A stretch of 25,486 bases of DNA from IMG/VR virus record IMGVR_UViG_3300001848_000034, positions 1-25,486 of that record, one strand, 5' to 3'. Below the pieces are notes generated by a model, which was not told where the DNA came from, did no database searches, and worked only from the letters and a program-made list of their open reading frames with translations. Of this stretch, positions 336 through 13,071 are shown piece by piece; positions within the stretch are counted from its first letter, which is position 1; the number at the start of each line of letters is the position of its first letter. Made by a program: the position numbers and the translations under genes. The stretch comes from a virus.

Positions 336-769
336 ATGGTAAAGTATAGGTTAGCTTCTTCTTTTCTCCTGTTCACTAATCCTTTTAATTCTTTACCATT
401 TGCAGTGATATACTTTGTTTCAAACCACATTCTTATTGCAGATGATGTAGAATTTGTATTAACTAAATTAAATAAAGTTTCTGATCCTCCGGTATTCCAG
501 GTATGAGAAACTAATGCATCAAACTGATTCTGATTTAAAGATACTTTAATTTTTTTATTTACAATACTTTCAAATTTAGGAAGCAGATTCTTGAACAAAT
601 CCTCAGCTCTTTGCTGAGTTATTTTATCTCCCTGTTTTACTTTGCTTCCATCCTCATAAAAGGTATTCCCAAATCCAATAGTCCAAAGTCCGGCAGGACA
701 TTTATAAGAATATAATTTGCAAGATTCCCATTTCTTAATAAGATTTATTCCTGCTGAACCGGTTGTCAT
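332..769 (-). CDS. Endolysin, GH24 T4-type lysozyme
   Basis: This 145-residue protein cleaves the glycan chains of peptidoglycan to lyse the host at the end of infection. Family signatures visible are the catalytic triad spaced E-x8-C-x5-T (E15, C24, T30), the GLWTIGFGNT segment around T30, and the C-terminal GLVNRR-x2-E block near residue 130. Cys replaces the Asp of T4 lysozyme at the second position, as is known for several lambdoid-type endolysins of this family. No N-terminal signal or SAR segment is present, so release to the periplasm should depend on a holin. The length is normal for a single-domain GH24 enzyme. The start is fixed by the ATGA overlap with the upstream spanin-like gene, and the stop overlaps the next start in the same way, so this is a tight cassette. 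Confidence 0.93.
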   Translation of the reverse strand: MTTGSAGINLIKKWESCKLYSYKCPAGLWTIGFGNTFYEDGSKVKQGDKITQQRAEDLFKNLLPKFESIVNKKIKVSLNQNQFDALVSHTWNTGGSETLFNLVNTNSTSSAIRMWFETKYITANGKELKGLVNRRKEEANLYFTI

Positions 770-1305
770 TTCTTGAGATTTCTAAATAAATGAAGTAATA
801 TTGAAACTATTAAAGCAATCAAAAAGTAAATATTCATCTTTGATGATCGGTCATATCTTTTATGAGCATCTTCTCTTTCTTCAATCATCCTTTGAATTGT
901 TTCTTTATCTGCACTGGATGAAACTATAACTGTATCATGAATAGCCGGAATCCTTTTAAATATGGTTCTATATCTGTAAATTATTTTAGTATATTTTTGT
1001 AAAAAAGTATCATATCTTTTAATAGTATCATATCTTGAAATAGTATCAGAAATAGTACCGAATACTGTATCAGTTATTTTAAGCTGATTTAAGCTATCTA
1101 ATTGCTGTTTAAGTACATTGTATTCACTTGAGTCAGATTTGCCTTTATTTTGGCTATATGGAAACCACAGAGCCATTCTATTTGAAACAAGTTCAGGATA
1201 GTTAATTTTTGCCTTATTTAATTGCCTATCAGCTTTCTTTGCAGTATAGCATCCTAAGATTCCTAATAAAAAAAATATCACTAAATATTTGGATAGTAAT
1301 TTCAT
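766..1305 (-). CDS. Unimolecular spanin-like lipoprotein (u-spanin)
   Basis: This 179-residue protein begins with a lipoprotein signal peptide: MKLLSKY, a hydrophobic run, and the lipobox ILGC with acylated C19. Residue +2 is Tyr, and there is no acidic surface-export signal after the Cys, so an inner-leaflet outer-membrane anchor is expected. The middle (about 40-155) is hydrophilic and helix/strand forming, with repeated short DT pairs around residues 79-125. A single transmembrane helix spans about 157-174 and is followed by a short basic tail. A lipidated N-terminus plus a C-terminal membrane helix is the defining architecture of u-spanins such as T1 gp11, which link outer and inner membranes and fuse them after peptidoglycan is cut. 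Overlap with the endolysin start supports a lysis role. I infer function from architecture and neighbours, not from sequence identity. An Rz-like component needing a separate partner is the main alternative, but no partner is seen. Confidence 0.72.
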   Translation of the reverse strand: MKLLSKYLVIFFLLGILGCYTAKKADRQLNKAKINYPELVSNRMALWFPYSQNKGKSDSSEYNVLKQQLDSLNQLKITDTVFGTISDTISRYDTIKRYDTFLQKYTKIIYRYRTIFKRIPAIHDTVIVSSSADKETIQRMIEEREDAHKRYDRSSKMNIYFLIALIVSILLHLFRNLKK

Positions 1306-1319
1306 CTTATTTATTTTTG
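1288..1319 (+). promoter_or_regulatory. Candidate Bacteroidota-type promoter, plus strand
   Basis: TTTG at 1288-1291 is followed by a 20 nt spacer and TATTTTTG at 1312-1319. This fits the published Bacteroidota primary-sigma consensus (TTTG, 19-21 nt, TAnnTTTG) at every fixed position. Transcription would start near 1326 and run rightwards into the gene-free region, opposite to all genes. The upstream half overlaps the first codons of the spanin-like gene. In such AT-rich DNA a match somewhere in the window is not rare, so the position in front of the structured gap is what gives it weight. Confidence 0.5.
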
Positions 1320-1322
1320 AAT

Positions 1323-1334
1323 TGAAATTGCATT
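1323..1334. repeat. 12-bp direct repeat, left copy
   Basis: TGAAATTGCATT here is repeated exactly at 1893-1904. The two copies lie 570 bp apart and bracket most of the gene-free region, including the first 91-bp repeat and nearly all of the second. They could be a duplication trace from insertion of the block, or AT-rich coincidence. Confidence 0.5.
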
Positions 1335-1360
1335 AAGGATTAGGGTAATAAATGAGAACC

Positions 1361-1390
1361 GGCTACCATTTCTATGGTGGCCTTTTTATT
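1361..1390 (+). terminator. Intrinsic terminator-like hairpin, plus strand
   Basis: GGCTACCAT (1361-1369) pairs with ATGGTGGCC (1374-1382) around a TTCT loop, giving nine pairs including one G-U. It is followed by five T residues and then ATT. On the minus strand the wobble becomes an A-C mismatch and no T run follows, so the orientation is plus. It lies about 35-65 nt after the predicted start of the plus-strand promoter, and would either define a very short RNA or act as an attenuator for a longer one. Confidence 0.55.
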
Positions 1391-1479
1391 ATCAGTGAGT
1401 TTGGTAAGGTACTTTTCAATCCCTTATCTCATCCATACAATCAGATGGTTCTTTCTTTGAACTAACCCTTTCACTGAAA
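1389..1479 (+). repeat. 91-bp perfect direct repeat, copy A (cloverleaf-like fold)
   Basis: This segment is identical base for base to 1807-1897. Its ends are inverted: TCAGTGA (1392-1398) pairs with TCACTGA (1471-1477). Inside, GGTAAGG (1403-1409) pairs with CCTTATC (1422-1428), and TGGTTC (1446-1451) pairs with GAACTA (1459-1464) around a seven-base pyrimidine loop. A weaker CATC/GATG arm (1430-1433 with 1444-1447) competes with that second hairpin. Both internal arms need a G-U pair on the plus strand that would be A-C on the minus strand, so a plus-strand RNA is the better reading. It is not a tRNA: no T-loop or acceptor-end sequence is present. Confidence 0.85.
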
Positions 1480-1484
1480 AAAAT

Positions 1485-1566
1485 AAGCAGTGGCTTGTAC
1501 TGGTTAAATCCAGTGAGACAAGTTTCATAAATTCACGTTTGAACATATTACTTTTTACCACTGCTT
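1485..1566 (+). other. Nested long stem inside the structured region
   Basis: AAGCAGTGG (1485-1493) pairs perfectly with CCACTGCTT (1558-1566). Directly inside its 5' arm, CTTGTACTGG (1494-1503) pairs with CCAGT (1510-1514) and ACAAG (1518-1522), leaving a GAG bulge and a six-base loop. The two stems would stack on each other. With no wobble pairs, this element alone does not indicate a strand. Confidence 0.65.
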
Positions 1567-1628
1567 TTAAATTGTAATGTGAGAGCTCACCCCACTCATA
1601 GAGCTTATACACTACATATATAATTATT

Positions 1629-1658
1629 TCTCTCGGCCCTACCCTAGAGATTTGTAGG
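1629..1658 (+). other. Possible H-type pseudoknot
   Basis: TCTCT (1629-1633) pairs with AGAGA (1646-1650). The loop between them contains CCTAC (1638-1642), which is complementary to GTAGG (1654-1658) just downstream. The interleaved 5-bp stems with short connecting loops meet the geometry of an H-type pseudoknot. Each stem is short, so chance pairing cannot be excluded. Confidence 0.35.
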
Positions 1659-1700
1659 AACAATAACTATAATGATGTGTAATTTTTTCCCCTCTGCACT

Positions 1701-1775
1701 CAGATGTAATAGCTGACAGTTCAGTTCATTTAAAACAATTTGTCCTATTAATAAGGATGTGCACTATTACATCTG
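1701..1775 (+). other. Perfect 12-bp inverted repeat
   Basis: CAGATGTAATAG (1701-1712) and CTATTACATCTG (1764-1775) are perfect reverse complements separated by 51 bases. The interval contains two smaller hairpins, CTGA/TCAG (1713-1716 with 1721-1724) and TCCT/AGGA (1743-1746 with 1754-1757). This is the longest uninterrupted stem in the gene-free region. It could be an RNA helix or a DNA cruciform/binding site. Confidence 0.65.
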
Positions 1776-1806
1776 TCCACCCTTGGGAAGTGGATTGTGG
1801 TGCATT

Positions 1807-1897
1807 TTATCAGTGAGTTTGGTAAGGTACTTTTCAATCCCTTATCTCATCCATACAATCAGATGGTTCTTTCTTTGAACTAACCCTTTCACTGAAA
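1807..1897 (+). repeat. 91-bp perfect direct repeat, copy B (cloverleaf-like fold)
   Basis: This copy is identical to 1389-1479, at a constant offset of 418 bases, so every stem listed for copy A is preserved. The identity stops sharply at both ends, close to the closing 7-bp stem (1810-1816 with 1889-1895), so the repeat unit and the folded unit coincide. A ten-base TGCATTTTAT runs into its left end at 1801-1810 and recurs at 1909-1918. Confidence 0.85.
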
Positions 1898-1904
1898 TTG
1901 CATT
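1893..1904. repeat. 12-bp direct repeat, right copy
   Basis: This is the second copy of TGAAATTGCATT (first at 1323-1334). It overlaps the last five bases of 91-bp repeat copy B and is followed at once by the related GAAATGCATT. Confidence 0.5.
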
Positions 1905-1967
1905 GAAATGCATTTTATGATGTGCATTATATTACTCAAAAAACACATTATTGTGTGATTTATACTA

Positions 1968-1994
1968 CATTATCGGTTTATTTCCGATATAATG
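1968..1994. other. Hairpin in the gap between holin-like gene and repeat B
   Basis: TATCGG (1971-1976) pairs with CCGATA (1984-1989) around a seven-base loop, and the stem extends by CAT/ATG across a two-base bulge. No T run follows on either strand, so it is not a classical terminator. A smaller CACA/TGTG hairpin lies at 1944-1955. The remaining sequence at 1898-2068 is AT-rich and holds no convincing ORF. Confidence 0.5.
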
Positions 1995-2038
1995 ACTGAA
2001 AATTCACACTTTAATATCAGTCAAATTCAGTCACAAAT

Positions 2039-2059
2039 ATTTGTCAAATTGTGACAAAT
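2039..2059. other. 8-bp hairpin just after the holin-like gene
   Basis: ATTTGTCA (2039-2046) pairs perfectly with TGACAAAT (2052-2059) around AATTG, ten bases past the stop of the holin-like gene. TCAGTCA occurs nearby at 2017-2023 and 2027-2033, with its reverse complement at 1993-1999. There is no T run on the minus strand, so termination is possible but weakly supported; a protein-binding site is an alternative. Confidence 0.4.
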
Positions 2060-2068
2060 TGGAACGGT

Positions 2069-2293
2069 TTAACCTTCTTTTTGGAATGCCTGACCTTTAC
2101 TATTAGTCAATAGGTTTTTAAGCAAATAACCCAAAGCAGAAGTCAAAGCAGTAGTTGCTATAAGATTCCAATCAAATGATAAACTTCCAGCTTGTACAGT
2201 TGTATAGATAACTGTCAATACAGAAGTTAATACTGCTAAAATCAATCCCTTACTTAAATCATTCAAATTAATGTTTAAAAATGGTGAATTCAT
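2069..2293 (-). CDS. Holin-like small membrane protein, two TM helices
   Basis: This 74-residue protein has two hydrophobic helices, about residues 15-35 and 43-61, separated by a short polar turn (GSLSFDW), then a basic/polar tail ending KGQAFQKEG. The size, topology and charged C-terminus fit class II holins, which form the lethal membrane lesion that lets the endolysin out. It sits just after a second small membrane gene and upstream, across the gene-free region, of the spanin and endolysin genes. Small two-helix proteins of this kind are common next to lysis genes in Bacteroidota phages. No catalytic motif is expected. Holin versus antiholin cannot be decided from sequence. Confidence 0.6.
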   Translation of the reverse strand: MNSPFLNINLNDLSKGLILAVLTSVLTVIYTTVQAGSLSFDWNLIATTALTSALGYLLKNLLTNSKGQAFQKEG

Positions 2294-11316: not shown

Positions 11317-13071
11317 TTAAATGTCTTTAAGTAATTCAGCTATGTAGTTAAGAGTTTCCTGTTCAACTGATAGTTGTTTTACTGTTTGTTTAGGTTCTTC
11401 ATAATCAAATAAACCCTCTACTGAAAACCCTCTTAATTCCCCTGATTTAATCTTATTCCATACATCAGGATTCTCTACATAAAAACTGCCAAACCAACTA
11501 CCATCAGCAACATCCTCAAATCCTTTCATTGGCAGGATTCCTCTTTTCTTATCTACAATAAAACTCTCAAACATAGTAACTCCATCAACTACTTGATTCT
11601 GATCATGCATTAAATTAACATTTGCCTGATATTTCTTCTTTGCAAACTTGATGGATATTTCTTTAATAGTATCAGCAGAAAACTTCACATAATGCTCTCC
11701 GAATGTGTCATTATTTCTATAAATCAATTCATCTGCAATCATAAGAGGACCTGATATAATCTTCTCATCTTCACTGATAATCTGAAACTGACTGAATTTC
11801 TTTGAGTCAATTTGCTTTAATTTTCTTGATGCCCATGCAATACCCTCATCACCTCCCCATGCTAACCACATTAATCTTCCACATCCATCTCCTAATTCTT
11901 TCTGAGAACTTTGTCTATGCCTTTCAAAAGCAGACATCCTGGCTATTGTATCTCTTGAGATGTTCTCTCCATTGGCTAATTGATTTGCTCTTGCCTTACC
12001 TACTGGAGTTCCACATGATCCCCATCCATTCTTTTCAACCCAATTCAAAGCTATCTTTGCATTTTCACTTGCCTTTTTAGGATAGTCATTATAAGTTTCA
12101 GCAAATTCTGTTGCAAATAATATATCAAATTTGTTACCAATCTTTCCTAACTCCTTTATAACATCAGCATTATTATCATAGTGTTTAGATATACCTAAAT
12201 CCTTTATCTTTTGAATTTTAGCTTTATTAGAACCAGTAGCATAAACTCTGCTTTCAGGTATTCCTAAATCTTTTGCAGTTTGTAGCATTCCTGTCAGCTC
12301 AGACCTTGCACTGATGATATAAACAATATTTCCTTCAGCTATTAATCTCTTTGCTAATTCTTTACCTCTTGGAGTAGATAAAGTTTCATCATAATCAAAT
12401 GAAATCTTTTCTCCAGCAAACTTAATAGGCCCACCAACTACCCATGCATCACAGGTTCTTTTACTTGCACATTTAAAATCAAATGCTTCACAATACCCTA
12501 AATCACCTGCATTAATAACATTATAAGGATCAAGTTCATTACCAATACCCTGAGCAATACAATCCTTAATCATTTTACTCACATTGAAAAAAGAACAGTT
12601 ACCACAAACTGATTGTTTAGCATTGTCAGGAGTAGTATTAAATTGTTTACCTTTTGCTATCCAGTATTCCTCATTAGGTAGATTAGGATTTAAAGGACCA
12701 TAATGAGCAACATTAATAGCAGTTTGTCTATTAGCAAGATTTGTTTTAATATCCTGAGTAGCTACCGGACAAGTTGATTGTACTGCAAAATCAGAAGCAA
12801 AATGTTCATCCCACAATGAATTACAAATTGCTACTGCTTGTTCTGATGATTTACCTTCATCAATTACATACTTTATACATCTTGGTAAAAACTCATCTTT
12901 ATGCTCTCCTTTAGATGGATTTATAAACTCCTGATTTTCTTCCTTAAAAGCTAAAAAGTCCTTTTTGATAGCCGGTTGATCTACCAAAGCCACATAAGAA
13001 ACCTCAGAATCATCATTCAAAGATTCATTTATTTTAAGCTCATATACTGGTAATTCTTGAAACTTAGTCAT
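11317..13071 (-). CDS. XkdF-like prohead protease carrying Cys-cluster and HAD-like inserts
   Basis: This 584-residue protein is far longer than a usual prohead protease. The N-terminus (about 8-45, ending VDQPAIKKDFLAF) and the C-terminal domain (about 425-560, GPLMIADELIYR, NLMHDQ, GELRGFSVEG) match the two ends of XkdF-type proteases; likely catalytic residues are H489 and S550. Between them lie a short DEFLPRC-x-DEGKSSEQAVAIC block (59-83), a Cys cluster (C156, C159, C171, C194, C201, C207), and a HAD-like domain with DYDET (D226, D228, T230), S254, K283/K285 and D299/D303. A further segment follows (about 325-422) with GRLMWLAWGGDEG, a module seen in other phage head proteins. The protease should cleave scaffold during capsid maturation. 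Roles of the inserts are unknown. It is a single intact frame. Confidence 0.72.
   Translation of the reverse strand: MTKFQELPVYELKINESLNDDSEVSYVALVDQPAIKKDFLAFKEENQEFINPSKGEHKDEFLPRCIKYVIDEGKSSEQAVAICNSLWDEHFASDFAVQSTCPVATQDIKTNLANRQTAINVAHYGPLNPNLPNEEYWIAKGKQFNTTPDNAKQSVCGNCSFFNVSKMIKDCIAQGIGNELDPYNVINAGDLGYCEAFDFKCASKRTCDAWVVGGPIKFAGEKISFDYDETLSTPRGKELAKRLIAEGNIVYIISARSELTGMLQTAKDLGIPESRVYATGSNKAKIQKIKDLGISKHYDNNADVIKELGKIGNKFDILFATEFAETYNDYPKKASENAKIALNWVEKNGWGSCGTPVGKARANQLANGENISRDTIARMSAFERHRQSSQKELGDGCGRLMWLAWGGDEGIAWASRKLKQIDSKKFSQFQIISEDEKIISGPLMIADELIYRNNDTFGEHYVKFSADTIKEISIKFAKKKYQANVNLMHDQNQVVDGVTMFESFIVDKKRGILPMKGFEDVADGSWFGSFYVENPDVWNKIKSGELRGFSVEGLFDYEEPKQTVKQLSVEQETLNYIAELLKDI

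Follow-up and report, generated by a model that had tools for sequence, protein, structure and literature searches.

GOLLD and ROOL, structured RNAs of phages, are often found near tRNA islands. Riboswitches combine a conserved aptamer with an expression platform placed ahead of related genes. Many GOLLD RNAs exceed 800 nt in length (PMC12286853), and a catalogue of candidate structured RNAs from human microbiomes includes some that lie near phage domains in Bacteroidetes (PMC8040213). Phages also make short antisense RNAs, amongst them the OOP RNA of lambda (77 nt) and the sar RNA of P22 (68/69 nt), as well as PAK_P4as15, which is antisense to an endolysin gene and may delay lysis (PMC12197685). 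Here we analyze a locus that invites comparison with all of these, located in the virus record IMGVR_UViG_3300001848_000034 (positions 1 to 25,486; these 25,486 nucleotides, which may be a genome fragment, are referred to as the window). An original prediction had proposed one large structured RNA in a gap between two likely lysis genes, transcribed in the direction opposite to every phage gene. With somewhat better than even confidence in the explanation as a whole, we instead read this gap as a composite of two unrelated small RNAs and filler: an element on the gene-sense strand that occurs twice (element A), and an antisense transcription unit at the start of the neighboring gene (unit B).

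Genomic setting of the gap

Gene calls put every credible gene of the window on the minus strand. The 763-nt gap at positions 1306-2068 contains no credible gene, as had been proposed, and is flanked by a holin-like gene (2069-2293, minus strand, 74 aa, with membrane segments) and a spanin-like gene (766-1305, minus strand, 179 aa, with a lipobox and a C-terminal membrane segment), after which a phage lysozyme gene (PF00959) comes next. The holin-like and spanin-like genes were named by architecture and place; neither has a match in PHROG or Pfam. The gap as a whole folds better than its shuffles on either strand, with z-scores of -5.0 on the plus and -4.5 on the minus strand, so folding alone does not name the strand that is transcribed.

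Farther along the window, the XkdF-like head protease (11317-13071) carries PF14550 at residues 433-554 and about 400 extra N-terminal residues, in which a HAD-like motif can be seen by eye. Across relatives the length of this protease ranges from 335 to 584 aa.

Sequence, fold and strand of element A

The two identical branched domains of the original prediction correspond to an exact 91-nt direct repeat, positions 1389-1479 being the same as 1807-1897. Relatives were gathered by lysozyme and spanin searches, followed by pattern scans of the viral collection and a search with a covariance model. Most of the close relatives carry a single repeat unit in the same holin-spanin gap, and the element occurs in about 20 further viral contigs, giving an alignment of 22 sequences that includes both window copies. 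Within the window the covariance model R1 finds copy 1 at 1806-1896 (94.5 bits) and copy 2 at 1388-1478 (95.0 bits), both on the minus strand and identical over 91 nt. Members score between 83 and 100 bits, and the next-best matches reach 17-18 bits. A loose viral pattern contributed two true members, L103 and L122; most of its further matches show a fixed spacing of 65-66 nt and look like unrelated conserved sequence.

On the gene-sense strand the consensus of about 89 nt forms a four-way junction of the helices P1 to P4. P1 consists of five nearly invariant pairs with a GG/CC step and a variable outer extension, P2 is closed by an AAAGAAA loop (variants AAGGAAA, AAUGAAA and AAUUAAA), P3 varies in both sequence and length, and P4 is capped by a GNRA tetraloop for which only GAAA, GCAA and GAGA are found. 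The stretches AAGGGTT and ACC are invariant. In the 22-row alignment, which was fitted to the covariance model, 91.6% of cells pair and 17 of the 28 pairs show two-sided changes. The two-sided cells number 105, as opposed to 39±5 in shuffled alignments and 4-19 with the pairing partners slid, although they are not independent events, since every member stems from a single group of uncultured phages. A MAFFT alignment of 16 sequences, made free of any model, agrees, with 69 two-sided cells against 27±4 (slides 1-15); the structure was drawn on this alignment before any model was built, which is partly why it beats its slid versions, while the compensatory changes are independent of the drawing.

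The strand is indicated by the same sequences. In 21 of the 22, the minus strand gives the more stable consensus fold (mean -15.4 kcal/mol as against -8.7 kcal/mol on the plus strand; Wilcoxon p = 5e-5), and on the gene-sense strand G-U cells outnumber A-C cells by 36 to 15. Members differ in length by amounts that are not divisible by three, an argument against a coding function. An open reading frame at 1424-1663 that enters the repeat was rejected as a gene: no conserved protein was found for it, and it has matches only via the repeat itself. On this comparative evidence, element A is almost certainly a structured RNA of the gene-sense strand.

To our knowledge, element A represents an undescribed phage RNA family, its newness being judged against Rfam 15. 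The covariance-model search that the original prediction had proposed found no Rfam 15 family at gathering score in the whole window, and loose-threshold scans of the gap and seven relatives gave nothing near gathering score and nothing on the sense strand of element A. Ribozyme models known to Rfam did not match it even at loose thresholds, and inspection by eye revealed no hammerhead, hairpin or twister-sister core. Named phages and plasmids gave no match. When 395 genomes of the same phylum, centred on a Lewinellaceae genome, were searched, a single weak match of 29.6 bits came back, judged to be chance because the conserved core is missing, and a pattern scan of genome contigs returned two matches, both devoid of the fold.

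Genomic placement of element A

Where element A is present in the larger contigs that we searched, it occurs once; the window alone has two. The sites fall into at least four contexts, always in gene-sense orientation: between holin and spanin; after c7 or the primase-like c51 and ahead of the c20 family; after c36 and ahead of a helicase region; and ahead of c9, after c3 or c45 (c-numbers denote protein clusters made in this analysis). As downstream genes are common to L011 and L089/L142, there are fewer independent contexts than the upstream neighbors suggest. These neighborhoods also occur free of the element: that of c7 in the window and in G011, that of c36 in L011, L010 and G007, and the holin/spanin neighborhood in G008. 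The relatives G001, G007 and G008, whose records may be fragments, yielded no element A at all, which suggests that it is dispensable. Its start usually overlaps the upstream stop codon or lies no more than 12 nt away from it. A sense promoter of the form TTG-N17-21-TAnnTTTG was not found within 300 nt upstream, so that element A would depend on transcription of the operon and on processing. In L011 (L087) and L142, the genes c20-c72-c33 behind the element are common while the gene in front differs (primase-like c51 vs c7), as if the block had moved together with element A.

Within the window, the identity of the two copies starts 1 nt before P1 at the 5' end, stops 2-3 nt past it at the 3' end and covers the otherwise variable P3 loop. 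Given these sharp borders and the identical P3 loop, the duplication looks like a recent and precise event; the two copies may have arisen by recombination or be an assembly artefact. Similar direct repeats ending in TGCATTTTAT lie on both sides of copy 1 (1788-1810 and 1896-1918). They are reminiscent of a degraded target-site duplication and may be due to chance in AT-rich DNA.

Remaining segments of the gap

Between the two copies lies a hairpin-rich insert of 327 nt (1480-1806), for which no homologue was found among the loci compared, named phages or plasmids. The segment next to the holin-like gene (1898-2068) contains inverted repeats and resembles early-operon control regions of L010 and L099, where the similar stretches precede other genes and have a terminator on one side and a promoter on the other. 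This likeness makes control-region DNA, and not RNA, the probable identity of the segment. Neither segment has support as a conserved RNA. The intergenic control regions in question (L010 3080-3500 and L099 1540-1740) feature a terminator with a TTTCTA loop, the inverted repeats ATCGG..CCGAT and TTTGTCAC..GTGACA, and a promoter of the form TTG-N-TAnnTTTG.

A probable antisense transcription unit at the start of the spanin gene

On the plus strand, the spanin end of the gap shows the arrangement of a short transcription unit. A predicted promoter of Bacteroidota type at 1289-1319 (TTG at 1289-1291, N20, TATTTTTG at 1312-1319) overlaps the spanin start codon on the opposite strand and fits the consensus described for Bacteroides, TTTG / TAnnTTTG (PMC7366714). 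A predicted intrinsic terminator follows at 1361-1390, with the hairpin GGCTACCAT(TTCT)ATGGTGGCC at 1361-1382 and a T-run. The predicted RNA between the two, antisense to the spanin leader, would span about 65 nt (1325-1390, plus strand), with ends deduced from promoter and terminator.

Among relatives, all 72 of 72 cells of the terminator stem pair, with two-sided changes in eight of nine pairs, and the hairpin favors the plus strand in 8/8 rows. The promoter is conserved on the plus strand at the spanin start as TTG-N18-20-TAnnTTTG, with the caveat that its -7 box overlaps the A-rich spanin leader and that a box of this kind occurs close to the start of 43 genes out of 419. When 864 kb of loci were scanned for a promoter and a terminator within 90 nt, 20 matches were obtained, compared with one in block-shuffled sequence; 14 of the 20 are antisense at the spanin start, in the window and 13 other contigs. 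The two signals also go together in a comparison of 13 spanin genes, where the terminator accompanies all seven genes whose start bears a -7 box and is missing from the six others. Unit B is thus very probably a real antisense transcription unit, to the extent that conserved signals in the DNA can identify one.

Unit B occurs in L004, L010 and L103, where element A is absent from the record or located elsewhere, and is therefore independent of element A. Conversely, L012 contains element A and has no unit B at its spanin gene, so the two need not work together. We had considered a pairing between the invariant AGGGU of element A and an ACCCU in the minus-strand spanin leader (window 1320-1360), but dropped it, as ACCCU is missing in L012, L100 and other sites. 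The ACCCU itself is conserved across a large part of the holin/spanin clade. Short promoter-terminator units of comparable length are also found in other places in the lysozyme-contig relatives L046, L059, L060, L016 and L017. Moreover, a hydrophobic open reading frame of 55-79 aa, represented by L103 3383-3550 (plus strand) with homologues in L122, G001 and G009, lies opposite to the late operon, adjoins the holin-like gene and is located beyond the antisense unit in those contigs that have the unit; it may represent a genuine gene of the opposite strand.

Discussion

Comparison between related sequences shows the fold and strand of element A, its occurrence as a single copy at differing sites, and the conservation of unit B with its promoter and terminator. 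In the mechanism we propose, RNA A would be co-transcribed with its own operon on the gene-sense strand and adopt a compact junction fold that includes the GNRA loop and the conserved A-rich loop. Its most likely mode of action would be that of a stand-alone RNA working in trans, with a protein or a second RNA as a possible binding partner, either after release from the phage mRNA or while still within it. A single copy that shifts between lysis and other operons is unlike a switch for one gene and would fit a self-acting RNA; we rate the chances that element A works in trans as about even. RNA B would be transcribed from the promoter over the spanin start codon to the conserved terminator and, being complementary to the spanin leader, would most likely damp or time spanin expression. 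Taken together with the filler, these two RNAs make up the composite explanation to which the somewhat better than even confidence stated above applies.

A cis-acting role of element A in the mRNA of the adjoining gene, whether as a processing or stability site, in translation control or as a riboswitch, we consider rather unlikely. Its constant gene-sense orientation and its position at or just after the upstream stop codon, often 7-30 nt ahead of the next start, would suit such a role, as would a highly conserved junction and loops that resemble aptamers; however, compact phage operons would put any insert beside a stop codon. The neighbors vary by site on both sides, and no conserved sense terminator or sequestering platform is seen behind the element. 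The arrangement that characterizes riboswitches is not apparent either, as neither the 3' flanks nor the genes downstream stay the same from site to site. The element might also be a self-cleaving ribozyme that separates segments of the polycistronic phage mRNA, to which its compact multi-helix fold, many invariant unpaired bases and location inside operons lend some plausibility; the lack of a match to the known Rfam ribozyme models, loose thresholds included, counts against it, and we give such an activity a very slim chance. Only slightly less improbable is a function at the level of DNA, in which single-stranded hairpins would mark a replication start, a single-strand initiation site or a recombination site. 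The retention of G-U pairs and the GNRA-type loop variation are RNA-like, the element keeps the orientation of the local genes, including in L011, whose operon there faces the lysis genes, and some relatives do without the element, whereas its single copy per genome fragment, its changing places, the proximity of several sites to replication genes and the precise duplication in the window are what such DNA might display. A bolder form of the stand-alone reading, which we regard as doubtful, would make element A a mobile RNA gene of Bacteroidota-type phages and a new functional class, possibly catalytic or protein-binding, that is kept at one copy per genome, can move from one operon site to another as an exact unit and has just been duplicated here.

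A single structured RNA extending over all 763 nt of the plus strand can hardly be upheld. The plus strand does fold better than shuffled sequence, and promoter-like and terminator-like sites are present on it, but the terminator at 1361-1390 is at the wrong end for such a transcript and points into the gap, the repeat domains are gene-sense, and relatives carry just the single 89-nt unit, with neither the insert nor the 5' part conserved. Conservation is confined to the repeat domains and to 1289-1390. Accordingly, the selection for a plus-strand RNA that the original prediction had deduced from G-U positions holds for the 1361 hairpin, while the repeat arms, to which it had been extended, favor the minus strand by both stability and G-U count. 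In the same way, transcription against the phage genes does not apply to the gene-sense repeat domain, but survives in the separate unit at 1289-1390. The expectation of an undescribed structured RNA is borne out by the repeat domain as a covarying family that Rfam does not contain, and in the alignments of relatives two-sided changes were counted in both the element A pairs and the 1361 stem, as given above.

The composite reading provides, with element A, a covariation-supported RNA family of 89 nt that comes with 22 aligned sequences and a covariance model and is ready for in vitro work. That it occurs once per genome fragment yet changes place is unusual and suggests that the RNA itself carries the function. 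Conservation of unit B at the spanin start suggests that Bacteroidota-type phages use RNA control in the last step of lysis.

Like element A, the candidate RNAs of the human-microbiome catalogue (PMC8040213) were predicted by comparison; we set element A beside them by description only, and the source of that catalogue, human microbiomes, differs from that of our set. GOLLD and ROOL resemble element A in being structured phage RNAs. The original prediction of a large, ornate RNA in their style is not sustained, as the conserved unit measures about 89 nt, far less than either of them, stands alone once per genome fragment in relatives, and matches no GOLLD or ROOL model. Their tRNA-island setting is not seen here, the 25-kb window, which may be a fragment, containing no tRNA or tmRNA. 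The predicted unit B differs from lambda OOP, P22 sar and PAK_P4as15 in its Bacteroidota-type promoter and its spanin-leader target; the resemblance to them described here is one of layout. On sequence evidence, it has what characterizes RNAs of the OOP type, namely its own promoter on the strand opposite to its target and a covarying intrinsic terminator (1361-1390) that would give a short RNA. Unit B thus resembles all three as a short phage antisense RNA with its own promoter and terminator, comes close to lambda OOP and P22 sar in size with its approximately 65 nt, and shares with PAK_P4as15 a position at a lysis gene.
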